DNA of 45,087 nt from Flavobacteriaceae bacterium (lineage in GTDB: Bacteria; Bacteroidota; Bacteroidia; Flavobacteriales; Flavobacteriaceae). The stretch spans positions 1 to 45,087 of the forward strand of contig JAHEMY010000010.1 of the NCBI GenBank assembly GCA_024643425.1. The letters are read 5' to 3'. Positions 41,938 through 45,087 of the stretch are shown in pieces. Numbering within the stretch: the first letter of the stretch is position 1; every line of letters begins with the position of its first letter. Below the pieces are notes generated by a model, which worked only from the letters and a program-made list of their open reading frames with translations, had not been told where the DNA came from and made no database searches. A program made the translations under genes and the position numbers.

Positions 41938-43842
41938 ATGAGTGACGAATTAAAACATGAATGTGGTATAGCGCTGGTCCGACTGCTTAAACCCTTGGAA
42001 TACTACAAGGAAAAATACGGGACTGCTTTTTATGGGATCAATAAAATGTATCTCATGATGGAAAAACAGCACAACCGAGGACAAGACGGAGCCGGATTTG
42101 CCGGTATTAAAATGGACATGTCCCCCGGAGAACGCTATATAAGTCGGATTCGATCGAACGCCGCACAACCCATTCAGGACATTTTCTCTCAAATCAATGA
42201 ACGCATCAATCTGGAAATAAAGAATAATCCGGAAATTAAAGAGGATATCGCACTTCAGAAAAAGATGATTCCCTACTTAAGCGAATTGTATCTAGGACAT
42301 GTTCGTTATGGAACTTTTGGAGGCAACAGCATCGAATCGGTTCACCCATTTCTTCGACAAAACAATTGGATGCACCGAAATTTGATCATTGCCGGGAACT
42401 TCAACATGACCAATACTAATGAACTTTTCCAAAATCTTATCAAACTGGGAATGCACCCAAAAGATAAAGCCGACACCATTACAGTGATGGAAAAAATTGG
42501 ACATTTCTTGGATGATGCCGTGCGCAAATTGTATAAAAAAGCGAAAGCTAACGGCATGAACAAACGAGAAGCTTCTCCTTACATTGCCGAACACCTCAAC
42601 ATTAGCAAAATACTTAAAAAGGCCTCTAAAGATTGGGATGGCGGTTATGCCATGGCTGGGTTATTGGGACATGGTGATGCCTTTGTACTGCGCGATCCTG
42701 CTGGAATACGCCCTGCCTATTATTATCAAGATGACGAAGTGGTTGTCGTGGCTTCAGAGCGCCCTGTAATTCAGACTGTTTTTGATGTTCCTTTTGAATC
42801 TGTTCACGAACTCGATCCCGGTCATGCGCTTGTGATTAAGAAAGACGGTAACGTGGATCTTTCACAAATTCTTGACCCTTTAGAACGCAAATCATGTTCC
42901 TTCGAACGCATCTACTTTTCACGAGGGAGCGATGCCGAAATTTACCAGGAGCGAAAAGAATTAGGGCGATTGGTGATGCCAAAAGTGTTGAAGAGCATTA
43001 ACTATGACACCCAAAAAACTGTTTTTTCATTCATCCCGAATACTGCTGAAACTTCTTTCTATGGAATGATGGAAGCGGCTCAAGATGAATTGAATAAACA
43101 AAAGAACGAAGCCATTTTAGAAGAAAAGCAATCCCTTACTCCGGAGCGCTTACAAGAAATACAATCGTTTAAAATACGTACCGATAAGCTCGCTATCAAG
43201 GACGTAAAATTACGAACGTTCATCACCGAGGACAGCAGCCGAGACGATCTGGTTGCGCACGTTTACGATGTGACTTATGGCATTGTTAAACCGGACGATA
43301 ATTTGGTGATTATCGACGATAGCATTGTGCGTGGAACGACCTTGAAGAAAAGTATTTTAAAAATGTTGGATCGTTTGCATCCAAAGCAAATCATTGTAGT
43401 TTCCTCCGCTCCCCAAATTCGGTATCCCGATTGTTACGGAATTGACATGGCCCGTTTGGAGCATTTGGTTGCTTTTAATGCGGCATTAGAACTTCATAAG
43501 GAACAAGGCACCTACGATATTGTTAAGACTATTTACGATAAATGTAAGATCGAATTATCGAAAACCGATCCATCGTCTGAAGTTGTGAATCACGTAAAAG
43601 AGCTATATGCTCCTTTTTCTGATGAGCAAATATCCGATAAGATTGCAGAAATTATTTCAGATGAAACTATTGGCGCGAAGGTAAAAGTAATCTTTCAATC
43701 GGTAGACGATTTGCACAAGGCCTGTCCTAAGAATCTGGGTGACTGGTATTTCACGGGAGATTATCCAACCGAGGGAGGTAAAAAAGTAGTGAACAGAGCC
43801 TTTGTTAATTTCTACGAAGGGAATCCGGAGCGTGCCTACTAA
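41938..43842 (+). CDS. purF: Amidophosphoribosyltransferase-like protein, long form
   Basis: 634 residues, about 130 longer than classical PurF (~500). N-terminal glutaminase (Ntn) domain with nucleophile C9 in KHECGIALV, which would need removal of a short propeptide; MMEKQHNRGQDGAGFAGI and HVRYGTFGG are family motifs. C-terminal phosphoribosyltransferase domain with the PRPP loop LVIIDDSIVRGTTLKKS and VSSAPQIRYPDCYGIDM. Extra segments lie between (~residues 195-215 and 365-420). It catalyses or derives from the first committed step of purine synthesis. Bacteroidota often also carry a shorter canonical PurF, so this may be a paralog with a distinct role. Confidence 0.88.
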   Translation: MSDELKHECGIALVRLLKPLEYYKEKYGTAFYGINKMYLMMEKQHNRGQDGAGFAGIKMDMSPGERYISRIRSNAAQPIQDIFSQINERINLEIKNNPEIKEDIALQKKMIPYLSELYLGHVRYGTFGGNSIESVHPFLRQNNWMHRNLIIAGNFNMTNTNELFQNLIKLGMHPKDKADTITVMEKIGHFLDDAVRKLYKKAKANGMNKREASPYIAEHLNISKILKKASKDWDGGYAMAGLLGHGDAFVLRDPAGIRPAYYYQDDEVVVVASERPVIQTVFDVPFESVHELDPGHALVIKKDGNVDLSQILDPLERKSCSFERIYFSRGSDAEIYQERKELGRLVMPKVLKSINYDTQKTVFSFIPNTAETSFYGMMEAAQDELNKQKNEAILEEKQSLTPERLQEIQSFKIRTDKLAIKDVKLRTFITEDSSRDDLVAHVYDVTYGIVKPDDNLVIIDDSIVRGTTLKKSILKMLDRLHPKQIIVVSSAPQIRYPDCYGIDMARLEHLVAFNAALELHKEQGTYDIVKTIYDKCKIELSKTDPSSEVVNHVKELYAPFSDEQISDKIAEIISDETIGAKVKVIFQSVDDLHKACPKNLGDWYFTGDYPTEGGKKVVNRAFVNFYEGNPERAY

Positions 43843-43851
43843 ATGCAATTC

Positions 43852-43875
43852 CTAGTAGAAAACTAGACTTTTTTT
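43852..43875 (+). terminator. Terminator after the purF-type gene
   Basis: CTAGT and ACTAG pair around AGAAA and are followed by AC and seven T, 10 nt past the stop codon. Short stem but good U tract. Confidence 0.55.
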
Positions 43876-43948
43876 GCACTTCATCGAATATACGAAACCG
43901 TTTATCCAAAAGTAGGAAAAGTCTGTAGTTTCTATGTATTTTTTGCTT

Positions 43949-43956
43949 TACATTTG
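43949..43956 (+). promoter_or_regulatory. -7 promoter element of leader unit A
   Basis: TACATTTG, perfect TAnnTTTG. Five nucleotides later the conserved block begins (TACCAT), exactly where transcription should start. No -33 TTG at standard spacing. Confidence 0.55.
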
Positions 43957-43961
43957 TATCA

Positions 43962-44047
43962 TACCATAGCATAAGTAGGTTAAGTTCATGGTAAGATTTG
44001 GGGCAAAAAAGGTAAACGAAAGTTTACCTTTTTTATTTGGCCCAAAT
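43962..44047 (+). ncRNA. Candidate small RNA, unit A
   Basis: Begins TACCATAGCATAAGTAGG; TACCAT (43962-43967) pairs with ATGGTA (43988-43993) around a 20-nt loop. It ends in a long hairpin: ATTTGGG (43996-44002) with CCCAAAT (44041-44047), A6 with T6, and GGTAAAC (44011-44017) with GTTTACC (44022-44028) around GAAA. The inner part is a terminator-like hairpin with a T run. Predicted transcript ~75-86 nt. No reading frame of note. It is 86-90% identical to unit C by eye, with paired changes in the hairpin. Confidence 0.55.
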
Positions 44048-44051
44048 TCGG

Positions 44052-44271
44052 GGTGGCGAGCTTCAAAGCGAGCCGTTTTACTCTTCCCTATAACGCCCCT
44101 TTGCCTTTTTTTTCTGTGTAAAAATAGAGGTGTCTGGCTTTAAAAACTCTCGTATTATAACTTTCCATATCGATCTTTACGTTTTTTTGAGTTGCTAGCC
44201 GCTGCCGCGGGTATCTCCATCAAATGTCCTCAGGACATTTGATTTTGCTTCCCAAAATTTTATTTCGATAA
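44052..44271 (+). repeat. ~220-nt repeat unit U1
   Basis: Begins GGTGGCGAGCTTCAAAGCGA and ends TTTTATTTCGATAA. Within it: a hairpin with tandem G-A mismatches (GGC-GA-GCT and AGC-GA-GCC), a GAG...CTC pair near 44127-44150, a T-rich run, then the GC palindrome and 25-nt inverted repeat. U2 follows head to tail with no gap. Confidence 0.7.
44194..44243 (-). repeat. REP-like palindrome plus inverted repeat, copy 1
   Basis: Plus strand GCTAGCCGCTGCCGCGGG then TATCTCC. On the minus strand this is GGAG followed by an imperfect hairpin (TA-C-CCGC, loop GGCA, GCGG-C-TA). Next to it, ATCAAATGTCC and GGACATTTGAT form a perfect 11-bp stem around TCA (44219-44243). Confidence 0.6.
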
Positions 44272-44495
44272 GGTTGCAAACTTTATATGCGAGCTATTTT
44301 TCACTTCTCCATAACAACTGTTTACTCTTCTTTTATCTGTATAACAATAGAGGTTTCATGCTTTAGAAGTCACTCGTTTTATAACATCCCAGATGGACCT
44401 TTACCTTTTTTTATGTTGCTAGCCGCTGCCGCGGGTATCTCCATCAAATGTCCTGAGGACATTTGATTTTGCTTCCCAAAATTTTATTTCGATAA
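44272..44495 (+). repeat. ~224-nt repeat unit U2
   Basis: Tandem copy of U1. The first ~35 nt are diverged (GGTTGCAAACTTTATATGCG) so the GA-mismatch hairpin is lost, but CCATAACAACTGTTTAC matches U3 and the last ~85 nt are almost identical to U1. This copy has no promoter or leader of its own. Confidence 0.7.
44418..44467 (-). repeat. REP-like palindrome plus inverted repeat, copy 2
   Basis: Identical GC-rich part to copy 1. The adjacent inverted repeat (44443-44467) keeps both 11-nt arms; only the loop changes from TCA to TGA. Confidence 0.6.
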
Positions 44496-44669
44496 GGTGG
44501 CGAGCTCTGAGAGGAATATAATTTCCCTTATTTCCCTATAATTAAGAATTAACCTTTCTTCGACAAAATGTTATCAAGTAAAACTTGATGCAGCATGCTA
44601 AACTTCCAGAATGTATTTTTTATTTTTTTTGTGATGCAACAAACGAAAACAAAGTCCGTATATTGTTAT

Positions 44670-44725
44670 TATCTTTATAAAAAGAAGCATAAGTAGTTGA
44701 CTCAATGAGGTAAATAATACCTTTT
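44670..44725 (+). ncRNA. Diverged leader/small RNA copy B
   Basis: TATCTTTA (44670-44677, one base off TAnnTTTG) is followed by AGCATAAGTAG (44687-44697), the core shared with units A and C, and then by a different hairpin, AGGTA and TACCT around AATAA, with four T. Sequence differs from A and C but the order promoter, core, hairpin is kept. Confidence 0.35.
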
Positions 44726-44758
44726 ATCGAAAAAAAAGGCGATTGGTCTAAAAGAGTA

Positions 44759-44787
44759 TTGTGTATTCAAAAAAACATATACATTTG
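44759..44787 (+). promoter_or_regulatory. Complete -33/-7 promoter of leader unit C
   Basis: TTG at 44759-44761, 18-nt spacer and TACATTTG at 44780-44787. This is one of the best promoter matches in the window, and it drives no protein gene. Confidence 0.65.
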
Positions 44788-44792
44788 GTTTA

Positions 44793-44877
44793 TACCATAG
44801 CATAAGTAGGTTAAGTTCATGGTAGATTTGGGGCAAAAAAAGGTAAACGACTGTTTACCTTTTTTTATTGGCCCAAT
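44793..44877 (+). ncRNA. Candidate small RNA, unit C
   Basis: Same start as unit A (TACCATAGCATAAGTAGG) at the same distance from the -7 element. TACCAT (44793-44798) pairs with ATGGTA (44819-44824). The 3' hairpin has A7 (44835-44841) facing T7 (44860-44866), GGTAAAC (44842-44848) with GTTTACC (44853-44859), loop GACT, and an outer TTGGG/CCCAA stem. Compared with unit A, one A and one T were gained on opposite arms. Confidence 0.6.
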
Positions 44878-44881
44878 ACGG

Positions 44882-45087
44882 GGTGGCGAGCTTCAAAGCG
44901 AGCCGTTTTATTCTTTCCCATAACAACTGTTTACCCTTCTTTTATTTATATAAAATAGAGTGTCATGCTTTAAAAGTCACTCGTATTATAACGATCCATA
45001 TCGATCTTTACCTTTTTTTTATTGCTAGCCGCTGCCGCGGGTATCTCCATCAAATGTCCTCAGGACATTCGATTTTGCTCCGCAAAA
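44882..45087 (+). repeat. Repeat unit U3, truncated by window end
   Basis: 206 nt of the same unit as U1/U2. The GA-mismatch hairpin is intact (GGCGAGCTTCAAAGCGAGCC). GAGTG and CACTC (about 44958-44982) can pair. The end reads TTTTGCTCCGCAAAA instead of TTTTGCTTCCCAAAA, making a new perfect TTTTGC/GCAAAA pair at the window edge. Confidence 0.65.
45024..45073 (-). repeat. REP-like palindrome plus inverted repeat, copy 3
   Basis: GC-rich part identical to copies 1 and 2. The inverted repeat (45049-45073) has one change in its second arm (ATTCGAT for ATTTGAT), giving a G-T wobble in one RNA orientation. Confidence 0.6.

Follow-up and report, generated by a model that had tools for sequence, protein, structure and literature searches.

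A widespread tandem small RNA family of Flavobacteriaceae with candidate targets among envelope and type IX secretion genes

Introduction

What is the role of two short, closely similar units that stand in tandem near the end of a flavobacterial contig, each with a promoter-like box before it and a terminator-like hairpin behind it? The units lie near the 3' end of the window analysed here, 45,087 nucleotides (nt) of contig JAHEMY010000010.1 of a Flavobacteriaceae bacterium (assembly GCA_024643425.1), and all features listed below are on its (+) strand. A preliminary description, made from the letters alone, had proposed a small RNA (sRNA) family shaped by selection on RNA structure or, alternatively, the 5' module of a repeated element. 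The observation is confirmed, and it was understated: that the units belong to a real, widespread sRNA family in Flavobacteriaceae is solid. The function suggested by their sequences, to which we assign a probability of about 0.62, is that of a trans-acting sRNA, present in multiple tandem copies and conserved throughout the family, that would repress envelope and type IX secretion genes by base pairing at the translation start.

We know of few flavobacterial sRNAs with a worked-out mechanism, and the Flavobacteriaceae are a large family with marine, soil and fish-associated members. A short RNA that occupies one locus in most cases, is preceded by a promoter motif of its own and has secretion and gliding genes among its candidate targets offers a ready experimental handle. 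Flavobacteria are reported to lack Shine-Dalgarno sequences (PMC9723704), which bears on how RNA could control translation in them.

Two sRNA genes in the window

Each unit reads as a complete predicted sRNA gene of ~77 nt, consisting of a -7 box, a 5' hairpin, a single-stranded GAUUUGGGGC and a terminator, with the following parts.

43949-43956, (+): unit 1 sigma-A -7 box TACATTTG, read in the sequence (TAnnTTTG consensus).
43961-44037, (+): sRNA copy 1, predicted transcript; model match 43963-44034, 98.5 bits, E 4.5e-20, copy 1 being one of the 40 sequences used to build the covariance model.
43962-43993, (+): copy 1 5' hairpin UACCAU...AUGGUA, apical loop GUAGG; predicted fold, sequence nearly invariant and without compensatory change.
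43970-43983, (+): copy 1 putative antisense segment CAUAAGUAGGUUAA, complementary to the translation starts of candidate targets in complement searches.
43995-44004, (+): copy 1 single-stranded GAUUUGGGGC in the predicted fold, a second candidate seed, with CCAAAT upstream of candidate target sites.
44005-44034, (+): copy 1 intrinsic terminator hairpin, A6/T6 flanks, loop GAAA, from sequence, fold and family covariation.
44780-44787, (+): unit 2 sigma-A -7 box TACATTTG, read in the sequence.
44792-44868, (+): sRNA copy 2, predicted transcript; model match 44794-44865, 88.4 bits, E 7.6e-18.
44793-44824, (+): copy 2 UACCAU/AUGGUA stem, read in the sequence.
44801-44814, (+): copy 2 putative antisense segment CAUAAGUAGGUUAA, from complement searches.
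44835-44866, (+): copy 2 intrinsic terminator hairpin, A7/T7 flanks, loop GACT, from sequence and fold.

Unit 1 runs in the order TACATTTG, TATC, A (+1, 43961), TACCATAGCATAAGTAGGTTAAGTTCATGGTAAGATTTGGGGC and then the A6/T6 terminator hairpin; unit 2 follows the same order, with one A fewer before GATTTGGGG, an A7/T7 hairpin and +1 at 44792. Both +1 positions are predictions, obtained by placing the TAnnTTTG box at -12 to -5, as reported for Flavobacterium psychrophilum (PMC9723704). The boxes, stems and hairpins lie where the preliminary description had put them, with the A/T tracts (6/6 and 7/7) and loops (GAAA and GACT) that it gave; only its unit ends, 44047 and 44877, need correction, as they overshoot terminators that stop at ~44037 and ~44868. 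The fold energy beats 200 of 200 dinucleotide shuffles for both RNAs (z -4.9 for copy 1, -4.1 for copy 2), and the predicted structure passes from the UACCAU/AUGGUA hairpin, with its apical loop GUAGG, through single-stranded AGAUUUGGGGC to the terminator. A 5' hairpin was predicted in all four units folded, such that a single unit has two hairpins and a read-through of two units would have four. A simple terminator scan listed neither the copy 1 nor the copy 2 terminator.

Distribution

When unit 1 was compared by blastn with 60 genomes, its own included, 27 matched, namely 26 of 37 from the same family and, weakly, one of 23 others from the order. A covariance model (R1), the check that had been proposed for the preliminary description, matches 245 of 299 Flavobacteriaceae genomes, with 1-7 matches per genome, often in tandem, as well as 128 of 150 genomes from a single genus, that of G115, taken to be Flavobacterium on the strength of a shared sequence variant. 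Of 295 genomes sampled from the class, 50 have a match at E up to 0.01. Six of them, out of nine family genomes in the sample, are each strongly matched at least once; the other 44, out of 286 genomes outside the family, match weakly, at 39.3 bits or less. The matched sequences of seven of these 44 genomes were read and are terminators or unrelated, and the outside-family matches were rejected as true members. At two loci of another family (L204 and L205, in genomes G518 and G619) a hairpin and T-run are preceded by GTTTAGTTAAGTTTAGTTAGGTTAGG, perhaps unrelated or perhaps a distant sRNA.

The exact 22-nt core pattern was found in at least 118 stretches of named genomes (L035-L152), whose genera we take to be Flavobacteriaceae, or else unclassified Bacteroidota. 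Because these stretches were fetched by that pattern, conservation within the 22 nt is partly selected; ACCAT and GATTTGGG, which lie outside the pattern and are thus free of that selection, are also nearly invariant, and the units found by blastn are likewise free of it. Among the matches listed, 304 units were counted in 144 oriented loci, at a median tandem spacing of 207.5 nt over 160 gaps; some loci cover the same genome or contig twice (L058 and L140; L008 and L093), so that the 304 units include repeats.

The second half of the earlier proposal, the 5' module of a repeated element, is not supported for an element of a mobile kind, given synteny in most named stretches (see below) together with the lack of any match to the sRNA in viral contigs (exact pattern), plasmids and phages. 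It is also scarcely credible that the units are repetitive DNA or terminators devoid of RNA function: the 3' end of the window does hold other local repeats, but a near-invariant core, promoter repeats and family-wide synteny all argue otherwise.

Covariation and coding capacity

Paired change in the stems had been put forward as the imprint of selection on RNA structure. Across 133 matches, comprising 113 distinct sequences, this holds for the terminator, in which 12 of 13 pairs show two-sided changes and 99.5% of cells are paired, and does not hold for the 5' stem, in which none of five pairs shows a two-sided change among the 113 distinct sequences. The whole structure contains 315 two-sided cells, as compared to a shuffled mean of 78 and to 9-32 in slid controls, and all 315 are in the terminator. 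Two pairs of the 5' stem never vary, one varies only between A-U and G-U, and two are sometimes broken. Paired change thus marks an intrinsic terminator; in the 5' half it is the sequence that is conserved, and the lack of compensatory change in the 5' stem indicates that selection keeps its sequence and not just its pairing. Alignment A2 was picked for perfect terminators and A4 (61 loci) was fitted to the A2-derived model, which inflates the percentage paired in A4; its two-sided changes still far exceed the slid controls. Across 282 units the lengths of the A-run and T-run correlate (Spearman 0.52, by a crude measure).

A coding core was considered and excluded. The units, 299 of 304 being kept in this comparison, have either A or AA after AUGGUA, an indel that shifts every reading frame in the invariant core, and hence no peptide is conserved. 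As expected of a trans-acting sRNA, the sequence provides a promoter and terminator of its own and no coding capacity, the transcript itself being predicted.

Complementarity to translation starts

The exact string CATAAGTAGGTTAA occurs 91 times in 45 genomes of the family, as opposed to once for the reversed control; in-array matches were counted as sRNA genes by position, and noticed outliers were read individually. Five of the matches lie outside sRNA genes, and four of these, on the other strand, are located where genes for exported or hydrophobic products begin. A start-site test was then made with a shorter core complement, TTAACCTACTT, in 26 hand-picked genomes, including the five that suggested the test, a site being scored as near a start when it begins no more than 30 nt from the first ATG of a sense open reading frame (ORF) of at least 60 codons. 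Outside sRNA genes there are 22 sites with this complement in 14 genomes with the sRNA (one of which, L358, may be a degenerate sRNA copy) and 16 in 12 genomes without it. In the former, 9 of 22 are near starts (background 5.2%, binomial p 7e-7), and in the latter 1 of 16 (background 4.4%, p 0.51), a contrast with a one-sided Fisher p of 0.018. Without the five suggesting sites, 6 of 17 remain near starts (p 1.5e-4 versus background), and without the PorP/SprF site as well, which had been noticed earlier, 5 of 16 (p 0.001). Complementarity at translation starts is thus found beyond chance, with the contrast between genomes at p 0.02-0.09 depending on the sites counted.

Reading by eye adds three sites at starts that the rule missed (L331, L349 and L351) and three located 46-61 nt upstream of starts (L353, L355 and L359), and a site falls in the gap before gldL in two genera. 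The candidate targets encode a PorP/SprF-family protein of the type IX secretion system (T9SS), GldL, a choice-of-anchor L protein, a CAP-domain lipoprotein, an S41 peptidase, a DUF6588 protein, a protein resembling SBBP-repeat lipoproteins (below cut-off), and unknown proteins. At L331 and L349 (genomes G005 and G008, of two genera) the sRNA complement lies at the start codon of a conserved 22-codon hydrophobic ORF (MKNIKRIVVLVSLVVMVSKIFF, MKNVKRIILLVVLVVIMTKVLF) that in both genera lies downstream of a gene that looks serS-like by eye; it is possible that this ORF encodes an unannotated small membrane peptide.

Two further signals accompany the sites. CCAAAT, the complement of the linker, occurs within 40 nt upstream of 5 of the 22 sites in genomes with the sRNA (background 2.5%, p 2e-4; 4 of 21, p 0.002, if L358 is omitted) and of 0 of 16 in genomes without it. 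Twin direct repeats like those in front of the sRNA units, scoring above 8 bits, precede 4 of the 22 sites (background 2.8%, p 0.003) and again 0 of 16, with a near-perfect pair of 26.5 bits upstream of the candidate target at L356. Two other forms of pairing were tried and dropped: a long perfect antisense target, as the 12-mer CTTAACCTACTT is rare outside sRNA genes and does not recur, and pairing with the 16S anti-Shine-Dalgarno sequence, which has two mismatches by eye.

Promoter repeats and a candidate regulator

Upstream of the units, both window units included, are two direct repeats of about GTTYRTCNAAAA. In the window they stand ~50-80 nt before the predicted start, as follows.

43879-43912, (+): presumed regulator site of unit 1, twin direct repeats CTTCATCGAATAT / GTTTATCCAAAAG at a distance of 21 nt; 26.9 bits, the scoring matrix having been trained on other loci.
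44722-44754, (+): unit 2 twin direct repeats TTTTATCGAAAAA / ATTGGTCTAAAAG, 20 nt apart; 19.6 bits.

With a matrix trained on half the loci (split by locus, with related species on both sides), 97 of the 108 main-type units held out exceed 8 bits, whereas the rate is 3.3% in 1000 random windows and 1.1% in 540 shuffles, and the start-to-start distance of the repeats is 20 nt in 88 and 21 nt in 7 of these 97 held-out sites. The matrix is a fair measure of the repeats, rather than a strict expression, which is found at 29 of 241 exact-core units; the strict expression occurs 30 times in 940 kb, 29 times before an exact core and once before a diverged unit.

A second unit type, GATTTGGGACGAAAAGGG (linker GATTTGGGA), closes the array in those Maribacter and Allomuricauda loci that were read (for example, L139 and L053). 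It mostly lacks the twin repeats (3 of 25 above 8 bits) and possesses a conserved upstream region of its own, TTATTTCTCACAATACCAGTAATTTAG and close variants, and it is probably under different control.

Sites of LytTR response regulators are reported to consist of two 9-11-nt repeats with 11-13 nt between them and to have no common consensus (PMC4847170). The array repeats, ~9 nt long with 11-12 nt between them, follow this spacing rule, and the YpdB site GGCATTTCAT given in the same source resembles several of them, which read GCATTTCATC or GCATTTCGTC. A LytTR-kind regulator of the array is tentatively suggested by these sequence features, as a class to test and not as a named regulator.

Pairing or protein binding

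Base-pairing control of envelope and secretion genes is the likely mechanism and the one best supported by these sequence comparisons. A LytTR-kind response regulator would bind the twin direct repeats and turn the array on, whereupon the apical strand CAUAAGUAGGUUAA and the linker GAUUUGG would pair with UUAACCUACUU(AUG) either in the leader of a target mRNA or around its start codon, with AAGUAGGUUAA and its complement as the presumed partners in the sRNA and the target start region. Such pairing would block initiation on mRNAs for exported proteins, lipoproteins, and proteins of type IX secretion and gliding, and several copies of the sRNA gene may add dosage. The same direct repeats also stand before some of the candidate targets, so that an incoherent feed-forward loop may link regulator, sRNA and target. 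Extended to a family-wide circuit, in which a single response regulator would drive, via the twin repeats, the array together with a set of genes for the envelope and type IX secretion, with the sRNA blocking those genes and gldL and copy number setting the strength, the proposal becomes speculative, and we consider it possible and somewhat doubtful.

A different use of the same RNA would be protein binding, whereby the frozen 5' hairpin is read by a protein, tandem copies titrate that protein as a sponge or scaffold, and the antisense sites are coincidental. A 5' stem that is nearly invariant among 113 distinct sequences without compensatory change is what would be expected if a protein reads both strands, and both the multicopy array and the limited target-site contrast between genomes (p 0.02-0.09) agree with it. 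Against this stand the complement sites, which gather at starts well above background only in genomes that possess the sRNA, and a diverged relative in the same genome (L328, G000:C29:2352-2427, 34 bits). This paralog, which has no twin repeats, keeps CATAAGTAGGTTAA and ATTTGGGGC with a different hairpin between them, supporting both segments as working parts and favouring sequence segments over hairpin shape. We thus regard protein binding as rather unlikely.

A number of points weigh against repression by base pairing. Transcripts from the loci are predicted from sequence, and a loose -7 box stands 4-7 nt before (A/G)CCAT in only 170 of 302 units (the predicted start is that A or G in 134 of the 170). 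The contrast between genomes with and without the sRNA is modest, at p 0.051-0.089 without the five suggesting sites and p 0.039 if four look-alike sites of one genome without the sRNA (G004), which look like one repeated coding motif, count once. The sample is small, its 26 genomes were hand-picked and include the five where the suggesting sites were seen, and the near-start window was set after the first sites were seen. Few targets recur between genera, a target being common to just two pairs of genomes, and complementarity rarely extends beyond the 11-mer except into the AUG (5 of 22 sites), seldom exceeding 11-14 nt. The antisense segment lies within the predicted hairpin, which must therefore open. 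In duplex energy, the starts of neighbouring genes were no better than shuffled controls for sod (superoxide dismutase; 40 of 61 found), purF (40 of 73), addA (40 of 61) or pfkB (38 of 38); sod had given a mild signal in an earlier, looser test, in which 10% of shuffles were as good on average over 35 loci. SusC starts, usable at 18 of 30 loci (nine with and nine without the sRNA), showed no clear difference. Finally, the link to LytTR regulators consists of spacing and resemblance.

Comparison with known RNAs

No Rfam family matches the window at its curated cut-off, and Flavo-1, an RNA motif described as widespread in Flavobacteriaceae (PMC9723704) and named for comparison in the preliminary description, has no match at gathering over the window, nor at E up to 1 for 43800-45087. 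The suggestion of an sRNA family with its own promoter and terminator outside Rfam therefore survives at curated cut-offs. The remaining Rfam matches below threshold, seen in six related loci, seem to stem from the terminator and were discarded. A search of the open-licence literature found no description of this RNA. Candidate sRNAs without Rfam matches are reported from F. columnare (PMC5395568), and the available text of a study of F. psychrophilum sRNAs accumulating with blood does not name this one (PMC9331221).

FopS of Bacteroides (RF04319) resembles the flavobacterial RNA in being a multicopy short Bacteroidota sRNA with a conserved 5' part and a terminator, and it is reported to bind translation starts of outer-membrane protein mRNAs (PMC11697453). 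The two have in common the string UUCAUGGUA..AGAUUU, a likeness barely beyond chance (equalled in 76 and 124 of 5000 shuffles for one variant, and 274 and 371 of 5000 for the other). The FopS score is 22.9-23.3 bits against a cut-off of 56 bits, below membership, and FopS is described with a single-stranded 5' stretch (PMC11697453), whereas the flavobacterial sRNA has a predicted 5' hairpin. Run over 198 genomes of the phylum, the FopS model gave nothing above its cut-off and 15 weak matches. Membership would also entail association with the RRM protein RbpB. Kinship with FopS was rejected on the score, the different predicted 5' structure and the near-chance string.

It might also be that the RNA has already been seen in F. 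psychrophilum, from which 85 newly described RNAs are reported (PMC9723704), as Rfp18 or another Rfp RNA, an identity that would be compatible with base-pairing repression. Rfp18 is flavobacterial, is reported as conserved in its genus, and has secreted metalloproteases and an adhesin as its predicted targets (PMC9723704), the same broad class of secreted proteins as the candidate targets found here; presence of the family in 128 of 150 Flavobacterium-like genomes fits such an identity, and a transcript across two tandem units would have a third stem-loop. The same source describes Rfp18 with at least three stem-loops and places its pairing in the third, whereas a single unit has two. The comparison is by description, and we consider the identity unlikely, though not strongly so. 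By sequence, the family is new to Rfam at curated cut-offs, though it may coincide with one of the Rfp RNAs.

The array has a functional analogue in the csRNAs of streptococci, whose genes are more scattered than those of the flavobacterial array. The csRNAs, too, are small RNA genes under one response regulator, 2-6 per genome, driven by CiaR (PMC3091779); they differ in phylum and in regulator.

Chromosomal setting

The array has a usual place on the chromosome, and in the window its surroundings include the following.

41938-43842, (+): purF-like gene (amidophosphoribosyltransferase family), the conserved upstream neighbour; ORF, TIGR01134 purF at E 5.3e-35, below curated cut-off.
44683-44715, (+): possible degenerate third copy GCATAAGTAGTTGACTCAATGAGGTAA; weak, its best local score being equalled by 29 of 2000 shuffles, and with no covariance-model match at E up to 1.

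Among the matches listed, 97 of 118 named stretches have purF upstream, 87 have superoxide dismutase as one of the next two downstream ORFs, and 72 have both; 24 of the 118 stretches end close to the array. This usual location between purF and sod would suit a cis-acting device of either locus, such as a leader, an attenuator or convergent terminators. Main-type copies, however, have promoter repeats and terminators of their own, and units also occur away from the array, for example in G005, G014, G024 and G007. Moreover, when up to 1.5 kb after purF was read in 21 genomes, of which 19 had given no model match and the remaining two, to which the model was not applied, belong to other families in the order, no convincing unit was seen, and dismutase motifs nonetheless follow purF on the other strand within 1.5 kb in 5 of the 21. 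A cis-acting role is thus very unlikely.

The array runs past the window, as the contig ends inside its repeats. By eye, the same repeats open another contig of this genome, C157, and are followed there by a short gene and then, on the other strand, by a superoxide dismutase gene. A local repeat of another kind, ~134 nt long and containing the palindrome ATCAAATGTCCTCAGGACATTTGAT, occupies 44149-44282, 44373-44501 and 44980-45087, the last truncated where the contig stops; contig C157 holds one more copy, almost complete, and there are short matches only in 3 of 39 other genomes searched. This repeat probably broke the assembly at this contig end.

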